A stretch of 39,058 nucleotides of DNA from positions 1 to 39,058 of the forward strand of contig JAIFWP010000002.1 of NCBI GenBank assembly GCA_019661785.1, written 5' to 3'. Positions 1 through 17,014 of the stretch are shown piece after piece. Position 1 is the stretch's first letter. Every line of letters starts with the position of its first letter. The stretch is from Candidatus Parcubacteria bacterium. GTDB lineage: Bacteria; Patescibacteriota; Minisyncoccia; Phycocordibacterales; Zambryskibacteraceae. The position numbers and the translations under genes are program-made. The notes under the pieces were generated by a model. That model was given only the letters and a program-made list of their open reading frames with translations, was not told the DNA's origin and made no database searches.

Positions 1-1192
<1,192 letters not shown>

Positions 1193-16021: not shown

Positions 16022-16603
16022 ATGCTTGAGTACAGCGAGATAACAGAGCGCAAATATATAGTTTATGAAGACGAGCCGTGGGAGGTCATCGACTCGCACG
16101 TCTTTAGGAAGCAGCAAAGGAAGCCGGTCAATGCTACCAAGCTACGCAACCTCATCACAGGCAGGATTACCGAAGTCTCCTTCCATGTATCTGACAAGGT
16201 CGAGGAAGCAGATATCTCGAAGAAGGAAGTTAAGTATCTATATGTGAACAAGGGTGAGTTCTGGTTCTGTGATGTTAAGGACCCGTCCAAGCGCTTTGAA
16301 CTCCCAGAAGTGATGATTGGCGAGACCGCAGCCAAGTTCCTTAAACCTAATACCATAGTCGACGCTCTCATCTTCGACGACGGCAAGTCTGACGAGGGCA
16401 AGATCATCGGTCTTAAGCTCCCTATCAAGATGGATTTGAAGGTCGTGGAGGCTCACCCAGCTACCAAGGGTAATACCGCTCAAGGCGCATCGAAGGCCGT
16501 AGTCCTCGAGACCGGAGCCGAGATACAGGTGCCGATGTTTATCAAAGAGGGCGACACCGTGCGCATCAATACCGAGACAGGACAATACACTGACCGAGTA
16601 TAA
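16022..16603 (+). CDS. efp: elongation factor P
   Basis: A 193-residue EF-P of normal length, which binds between the P and E sites of ribosomes and relieves stalling at polyproline stretches. The three OB-like domains are recognisable: domain I with KLRNLITGRITEVSF, domain II with FWFCDVKDPSKRFELPE, and domain III with KAVVLETGAEIQVPMFIKEG and the usual DTVRINTETGQYTDRV ending. The tip loop, residues 28-36, reads FRKQQRKPV in place of the PGKGQ type seen in E. coli, so the modified lysine position is altered and K30, R33 and K34 are the nearby basic residues. There is no Shine-Dalgarno. The 3' end runs into structured element 1. Confidence 0.96.
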   Translation: MLEYSEITERKYIVYEDEPWEVIDSHVFRKQQRKPVNATKLRNLITGRITEVSFHVSDKVEEADISKKEVKYLYVNKGEFWFCDVKDPSKRFELPEVMIGETAAKFLKPNTIVDALIFDDGKSDEGKIIGLKLPIKMDLKVVEAHPATKGNTAQGASKAVVLETGAEIQVPMFIKEGDTVRINTETGQYTDRV

Positions 16604-16611
16604 ATAGTTTC

Positions 16612-16712
16612 GCAAATATAATACGAAAAACCACACAGTAATTCCCTGCTGGGAATTCTGCTCGAACTCGGCTCGGCAGCCTCCGTTAGGCTTTTTCTTC
16701 CATTATATTTGC
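16612..16712 (+). ncRNA. structured 3' RNA element, copy 1 (efp side)
   Basis: This is a 101-nt element closed by a perfect 11-bp inverted repeat, GCAAATATAAT (16612-16622) with ATTATATTTGC (16702-16712). An inner stem, GAAAAACC (16625-16632) with GG(C)TTTTTC (16689-16697), follows. Inside are hairpin A, AATTCCC-TGCT-GGGAATT (16640-16657), a 12-nt spacer ending ACTC, hairpin B, GGCT-CGGC-AGCC (16670-16681), then TCCGT. Copy 2 shows the same order with compensatory changes. The T-rich 3' arm and the alternative stem AGCCT/AGGCT before TTTTTC suggest that it also terminates efp transcription. Confidence 0.7.
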
Positions 16713-16719
16713 TGTACAA

Positions 16720-16818
16720 GCAAAAAAGCAGATTTCGAGCGTCACGGAGGCCGACGGGCCGAGTGGAGCGTGCGTTTCCAGCAGGAAACGATAGCGCGCT
16801 AAGAAATCTGCTTTTTGC
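16720..16818 (-). ncRNA. structured 3' RNA element, copy 2 (rpsR side)
   Basis: This is a 99-nt element read on the minus strand from rpsR. It is closed by GCAAAAAGCAGATTTC (16818-16803) pairing with GAAATCTGCTTTTTTGC (16736-16720), 16 bp with one extra T. Inside are hairpin A, CGTTTCC-TGCT-GGAAACG (16790-16773), a 12-nt spacer ending ACTC, hairpin B, GGCC-CGTC-GGCC (16760-16749), then TCCGT. Loop, spacer length and flanks match copy 1 while stem pairs differ in compensated ways. It begins five bases past the rpsR stop codon. Confidence 0.7.
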
Positions 16819-16822
16819 GTGA

Positions 16823-17014
16823 TTACCTAGAAACGTATGGGAGGAGTCCCATGAACCTTGCGCGCTTGATAGCAGTGGCCAAAGAGCGCTGGAAGTGCGA
16901 CGGCGCGCCCGAGCGCTTCCTCGACTGGATGCGAGCGTGCGGAGTGAGGAACTTCTTTAGAGTCTCTACATCCTTATAGTCTATGTGGTCTATGTTTACT
17001 TCTGGATTTTTCAT
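16823..17014 (-). CDS. rpsR: 30S ribosomal protein bS18
   Basis: A 63-residue bS18, shorter at the N-terminus than the usual 70-80 residues. The signature block is complete: YKDVETLKKFLTPHARIQSR, KRSGAPSHFQRSLATAIKRA and RFMGLLPYV. It binds the central domain of 16S rRNA as a pair with bS6. It is the last gene of the rpsF-ssb-rpsR set, 40 bp after ssb. There is no strong Shine-Dalgarno, only AAAAAGAA. The structured element copy 2 follows its stop codon directly. Confidence 0.96.
   Translation of the reverse strand: MKNPEVNIDHIDYKDVETLKKFLTPHARIQSRKRSGAPSHFQRSLATAIKRARFMGLLPYVSR

Follow-up and report, generated by a model that had tools for sequence, protein, structure and literature searches.

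Two hairpin units between efp and rpsR

The window, a 39,058-nucleotide stretch of a Candidatus Parcubacteria genome (G000), contains the convergent genes efp and rpsR, and the gap between them holds two hairpin units, one per strand. Both are elements of type 1, in which a core sits at the tip of a long outer stem directly after a protein gene. The features are as follows.

16022..16603, + strand: efp, elongation factor P (Pfam Elong-fact-P_C, 2.9e-24)
16612..16712, + strand: unit A, complete type-1 element 3' of efp, outer arms plus core (sequence; fold z -5.0; matched by models R1 and R2)
16612..16622, + strand: unit A 5' outer arm, GCAAATATAAT, locus-specific (pairs perfectly over 11 bp with 16702-16712)
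16640..16657, + strand: unit A hairpin A with TGCT loop (stem covaries across 47 copies)
16665..16687, + strand: unit A hairpin B, AAC-TC-GGCT-CGGC-AGCC-TCC-GTT (closing and upper stems covary)
16702..16712, + strand: unit A 3' outer arm, ATTATATTTGC (perfect 11-bp pairing with 16612-16622)
16720..16818, - strand: unit B, complete type-1 element 3' of rpsR (sequence; fold z -5.6; matched by models R1 and R2)
16720..16736, - strand: unit B 3' outer arm, GAAATCTGCTTTTTTGC, T-rich and terminator-like (pairs with 16803-16818)
16743..16765, - strand: unit B hairpin B, CAC-TC-GGCC-CGTC-GGCC-TCC-GTG (covariation in 47 copies)
16773..16790, - strand: unit B hairpin A with TGCT loop (covariation in 47 copies)
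16803..16818, - strand: unit B 5' outer arm, GCAAAAAGCAGATTTC in minus-strand reading (14 bp perfect with 16720-16736, extended beyond one extra T)
16823..17014, - strand: rpsR, ribosomal protein S18, convergent to efp (Pfam Ribosomal_S18, 1.7e-19)

The first-pass annotation had described two units of about 100 nt, one per strand and each closed by an inverted repeat, with a TGCT hairpin A, 12 nt ending ACTC, a hairpin B and then TCCGT; all of this is borne out in both units. It had overlooked that hairpin B is closed by a covarying stem of 3 bp (AAC/GTT in unit A, CAC/GTG in unit B) and that the outer stem of unit A continues inward (GAAAAACC / GGCTTTTTC, interrupted by one bulge). The arms of unit B (GCAAAAAGCAGATTTC / GAAATCTGCTTTTTTGC) pair over 16 bp and include one extra T. 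Hairpin A reads AATTCCC-TGCT-GGGAATT in unit A versus CGTTTCC-TGCT-GGAAACG in unit B, and the upper stem of hairpin B reads GGCT/AGCC versus GGCC/GGCC. The two cores align without gaps over ~60 nt, with 38 of 61 columns identical, while the outer arms differ. Folding of each unit beats 200 of 200 dinucleotide shuffles (z of -5.0 for A and -5.6 for B). A model search of the window found these two copies only.

An undescribed family of dispersed hairpin elements

The first-pass annotation had proposed a covariance model of the two units and a search of relatives with it. Such a model, built from the cores of units A and B (R1), finds two further copies in this genome and copies in 15 of 40 relatives, with E-values, which are rough in home-made models, reaching 1e-20 in related genomes. 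A second model (R2), built from 47 copies, finds 10 copies in this genome and detects the family in 93 of 148 genomes sampled from the order, where per-genome counts are lower bounds (36 candidates scored per genome). Copy numbers reach 60 in G050, with 30 in G042 and 20 in G088. Beyond the order the family is sparse (28 of 287 genomes drawn across the phylum Patescibacteria), and within the genus it is patchy, with 10 copies in G000, 11 in G007, 2 in G006 and none in G003. Contigs matching a strict pattern for type 2, the form found at tRNA genes, come from Nomurabacteria, Kaiserbacteria, Taylorbacteria, Yonathbacteria, other Parcubacteria/Paceibacterota and MAGs titled only bacterium. A search of IMG/VR with one such pattern gave 0 matches, and no viral spread was detected.

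Units A and B are members of a dispersed, hitherto undescribed family of hairpin elements that lie at the ends of genes and tRNAs across Patescibacteria. Elements are ~95-110 nt long and without genes, with a conserved core of ~60 nt and locus-specific outer arms. Consistent with the earlier statement that no named family fits, Rfam 15 at gathering thresholds matched nothing but LSU rRNA in the window and, in eight related loci, tRNAs, the best sub-threshold hits being eukaryotic miRNA/lncRNA models (E about 0.5), and searches of the available literature found no description of the element. The LSU match is a 3'-truncated 23S rRNA (RF02541) at the window edge, 1-1153 (-). That the units are chance inverted repeats or ordinary terminators sharing no family has in its favor that ordinary terminators are common at such sites. 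Chance is nevertheless excluded because a shared-core model finds the element in many related genomes at such E-values; the copies in relatives and the covariation of 15 of 16 pairs already refute this explanation, to which we assign practically no weight.

Longer variants occur at L061:375, L070:1960, L080:1726, L053:1244 and L066:2020, where hairpin A has another loop and a TGCT hairpin or a different long hairpin lies inside hairpin B; the family is therefore wider than model R2. Tandem triplets in direct orientation occur within ~240-280 nt at L045:1493-1773 and at G050 279238-279476.

Core structure and covariation

In hairpin A, a bulge of T or TA separates the outer stem from an inner stem that carries the TGCT loop. 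Hairpin B is closed by a covarying NNC/GNN stem, contains an internal loop (TC/TCC) and usually has CGTC as its loop. In the 47-copy alignment, 96.5% of cells pair, versus 67% in shuffles. Two-sided change is seen in 15 of 16 core pairs, and sliding the pairing partner destroys the signal. A functional RNA family would account for this strong covariation and for the low folding energy of units A and B: the core would form the conserved tip of a specialized intrinsic terminator or of an element in the 3' UTR, maintained by selection and spread by recombination, with arms free to vary under pairing.

The near absence of G-U pairs speaks against that explanation. They make up 0.6-1.2% of paired cells (12 of 1200 pairs in two alignments), compared with 5.8% (30 of 516 pairs) in tRNA stems of the same loci, the reference being the acceptor and T stems of 44 tRNAs that fit a simple stem rule. 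This is the pattern expected if pairing is kept in DNA, and it is suggestive rather than proof. The first-pass annotation had taken the compensated stem bases as selection for RNA structure; the compensation stands, and the scarcity of G-U points instead to pairing at the DNA level.

Type 1: copies behind protein genes

Types were assigned by linker pattern or arm score, an imperfect division, and genes were called as longest open reading frames; on this basis, type-1 copies outside G050 comprise 31 sense, 9 antisense, 9 both and 15 neither (p = 0.0007), with the core 24-50 nt past the stop codon in most cases. With small genes and G088 included, orientation to genes is not random, and type-1 copies outside G050 have a genuine sense bias. 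The arms are A-rich on the 5' side and T-rich on the 3' side (0.44 T vs 0.26 A in 3' arms) and lie just past stop codons, fitting a terminator position in many copies. Nearly all copies in G088 sit in near-perfect 15-26 bp terminator-like stems. Given the sense bias, the post-stop spacing and the T-rich 3' arms, type 1 is, or sits inside, a terminator-like hairpin, and its copies probably also serve as, or sit in, putative terminators. Type 1 resembles intrinsic (bidirectional) terminators in arm composition and position but differs in that a conserved 60-nt two-hairpin domain replaces the loop, on stems of 15-27 bp.

The arms themselves are local. In G042 and G088, cores with an identity of 0.69-0.84 are enclosed by long, almost perfectly paired arms of unrelated sequence, the outer arms having an identity of 0.31-0.43. 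The two arms of one copy match each other much better than arms drawn from different copies (score of at least 10 in 66 of 121, versus 0.7% of cross-pairings). At L004 the 5' arm, AAGAGCGGAAAATAG, is coding sequence, comprising the final codons and the stop.

These type-1 features are what a terminator or 3' UTR RNA predicts, and the first-pass annotation, which had suggested terminators, 3' UTR elements or small RNAs, is upheld to the extent that type-1 copies are mostly sense, post-stop and in terminator-like stems. As the whole story it is not supported. Arm-enclosed copies in G050 mostly have no adjacent sense stop (14 neither, 4 antisense, 1 sense), and there arms are common within subfamilies and the gene-end rule fails. 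A simple terminator scan, itself uninformative, flagged no more than a weak alternative hairpin in unit A, made no call in unit B and did not pick up the unit stems. The reported location behind translation-factor or ribosomal genes is correct for efp and rpsR and does not extend to a rule, as copies follow many kinds of gene.

Type 2: copies at tRNA genes and rplK

Type 2 has the same core with a longer linker (GCGACCCC) and lies downstream of tRNA genes; 6 of the 10 copies in this genome are of this type. Where a tRNA lies within 130 nt on the core's 3' side, the core is antisense to it in 42 cases and sense in 1. The antisense placement rules out a purely sense-strand RNA as the sole explanation and weighs against an RNA family generally. 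On the tRNA strand, the order is tRNA, trailer/terminator, an inverted copy of tRNA positions 54-74, the core, and a direct copy of C56-C74. The inverted copy keeps its ends, and its middle is often shortened; copies that have lost the middle fold as two boxes flanking an unpaired spacer. In G050, an inverted T-arm copy (at least 8 nt) lies downstream of 22 of 40 tRNAs, against 3 upstream and 6 with mismatched partners, and a direct copy (at least 10 nt) lies downstream of 15 tRNAs versus upstream of 1.

Twelve tRNA genes, spanning eight specificities (Leu, Val, Ile, Ser, Glu, His, Gly, Thr), show a direct repeat of their 3' end that measures exactly 19 nt; a thirteenth has 18 nt. For 11 of these 12 genes the repeat begins at the called 3' terminus of the tRNA, and for 11 a gap of 2 nt separates the end of the repeat from the core; the tRNA gene beside it stays intact. 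This 19-nt copy looks like the trace of a DNA insertion. The repeat extends over the base that follows the discriminator (position 74), which is C in every case, and most tRNA genes with it are without a full encoded CCA (for example, G050 L102:907-977 and L107). Four genomes (L018, L042, L060, L077) show the same arrangement at rplK: the copies at its 3' end are antisense, and a repeat of ~15 nt duplicates the gene end, stop codon included.

The T-loop sublocation is a known site of tRNA integration. The exact C56-C74 repeats, with an intact tRNA, fit such integration and raise the possibility that the elements are what is left of integrative elements, or minimal versions of them, the core being a folded attachment site (attC-like or CTXphi-like) of a site-specific recombinase and the tRNA copies attL/attR scars with a 19-bp identity block. 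An inverted copy that keeps both ends around an unpaired spacer would also fit. Like tyrosine-integrase elements at tRNA 3' ends, type 2 shows a direct repeat of the tRNA 3' part, an intact tRNA and a fixed orientation; unlike them, the inserts are only ~75-175 bp, carry no integrase and add an inverted copy of the target. Type-1 copies have no direct repeat, and neither cargo, integrase nor any recurrent mobility gene was found near copies. Elements also resemble integron attC sites in being imperfect folded palindromes with variable stem tips in which pairing rather than sequence is kept; however, they follow other length rules, have no integron integrase, and the units read show no terminal RYYYAAC / GTTRRRY core boxes. 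We regard integrative remnants as improbable.

Possible signs of mobility

In G050, a type-2 unit splits other copies between hairpins A and B (369446, 377664) and within hairpin B (628113, 310885). The interrupting unit starts with TCAC and ends with the hairpin CTCAATTGC..GCAATTGAG, and both halves of the interrupted copies are recognizable. Nested copies count against an RNA family, though they could alternatively derive from recombination between homologous cores, and some in G050 are clearly chimeras (279419, 223775).

Presence is also variable at the efp-rpsR site. The pair of units is absent from the efp orthologues of all 8 congeners sampled, a further difficulty for an RNA family. In G006 and G008 efp and rpsR nearly abut (a gap of about 13 nt in G006), and in G003 the site is occupied by a plain bidirectional terminator. 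That relatives carry ordinary terminators of this kind here counts in favor of an RNA family. The ~220 nt in G000 represents a gain here or repeated loss elsewhere. Because copies also adjoin the recA-efp-rpsR-ssb cluster in G022 and G110, this site may have been hit repeatedly. No shared mobility neighbor emerged, as only recA-efp-ssb-rpsF, rplK-nusG and other housekeeping genes recur. Copies in G040 (L036, L037, L038, L039, L047, L049) abut GTCATTCC..GGAATCCAG palindromes resembling CGTC-1/dRS3 REPs, which suggests that these palindromes are insertion targets.

Comparison with repeat families and candidate enzymes

The nearest known kind is REP/REPIN. REP, REPIN and BIME sequences are GTAG- and CGTC-tagged palindromic repeats (PMC3733652, PMC3116915); the CGTC REPs form a class without a known transposase (PMC3733652, PMC3116915), and some REP families lodge inside target palindromes (PMC3733652). 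The hairpin elements are likewise short extragenic palindromes without genes that occur in tens of copies and often form pairs and clusters. They differ in being ~100 nt long with two unlike hairpins, in having locus-specific arms and 19-nt direct repeats at tRNAs, and in having neither the GTAG tag nor a RAYT link; failing on tag and RAYT, they are not members. A CGTC-tagged REP was also rejected, since such a repeat requires an unpaired CGTC at its terminus and, behind it, a stem of 8-9 bp, and here CGTC is the loop of hairpin B. Bacterial MITEs and IS200/IS605-derived palindromes are similarly non-autonomous, hairpin-bearing and patchy, with nested copies, whereas type 1 has no fixed terminal inverted repeats, no Y1 was detected in the host and no constant target was found.

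No mobilizing enzyme was found, and incomplete assemblies could hide the gene. Y1 genes occur in 24 of 41 genomes, and none was detected in G000, G042 or G088. A RAYT/Y1 link was rejected, as 0 of 15 loci carrying Y1 genes have an element copy above noise. Many relatives (L081-L095) carry several Y1 (RAYT-like) transposase genes of ~200-280 aa, unrelated to the hairpin element. For tyrosine recombinases (PF00589), one match was found in G000 and none in the copy-rich G042 and G088, which also weakens the case for integrative remnants. Neither Y1 nor Phage_integrase counts follow copy number, and a tyrosine recombinase link was likewise rejected.

A proposed mobile folded-DNA family at gene 3' ends

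We favor, with a probability of roughly 0.58, a mobile, REP/MITE-like folded-DNA family that decorates gene 3' ends, that is, short gene-less dispersed elements spread by insertion. Its observed basis comprises the family itself, its copy number and patchiness, nesting, inverted local arms, the 19-nt repeats and covariation with scarce G-U. The two-hairpin core would sit on top of an outer stem, and the arms of that stem may be taken from, or shaped by, local sequence at the neighboring gene's 3' end. Insertion would occur at palindromic or hairpin-forming 3' ends, namely protein-gene terminators for type 1 and the tRNA T-arm/acceptor end for type 2. Recognition would most likely act on a folded single strand, like REP/REPIN, IS200/IS605-type or attC-like DNA; we infer this recognition, the rule for insertion sites and the copying of the target into the arms. 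In the window, the gap between efp and rpsR would have received two copies, each forming the tip of a long hairpin; these two hairpins probably also stop transcription of both convergent genes.

An RNA/terminator family is the main rival, and on balance we consider it unlikely. By itself it does not account for the antisense placement at tRNAs, the occurrence of 19-nt repeats, the nesting of copies or the lack of G-U pairs. A purely mobile model explains less well the type-1 sense bias and tight post-stop spacing, and no movement was seen between close strains. Since each model leaves gaps, a mobile element whose type-1 copies are retained because they still terminate transcription would cover both sets of facts. 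More tentatively, and with doubt prevailing, the elements may represent a new folded-DNA mobile class that inserts at hairpin-forming 3' ends and copies the target end into its arms (C56-C74 at tRNAs) without a RAYT or tyrosine recombinase.

Patescibacteria genomes are tiny and thought to be repeat-poor. If the mobile reading is true, a repeat family at gene and tRNA ends would be an unrecognized force in their evolution, a probable breaker of assemblies and possibly a new insertion mechanism, which the fixed 19-nt tRNA repeat and locus-specific arms make directly testable. If the RNA reading is true instead, the elements would constitute a new class of decorated terminator.
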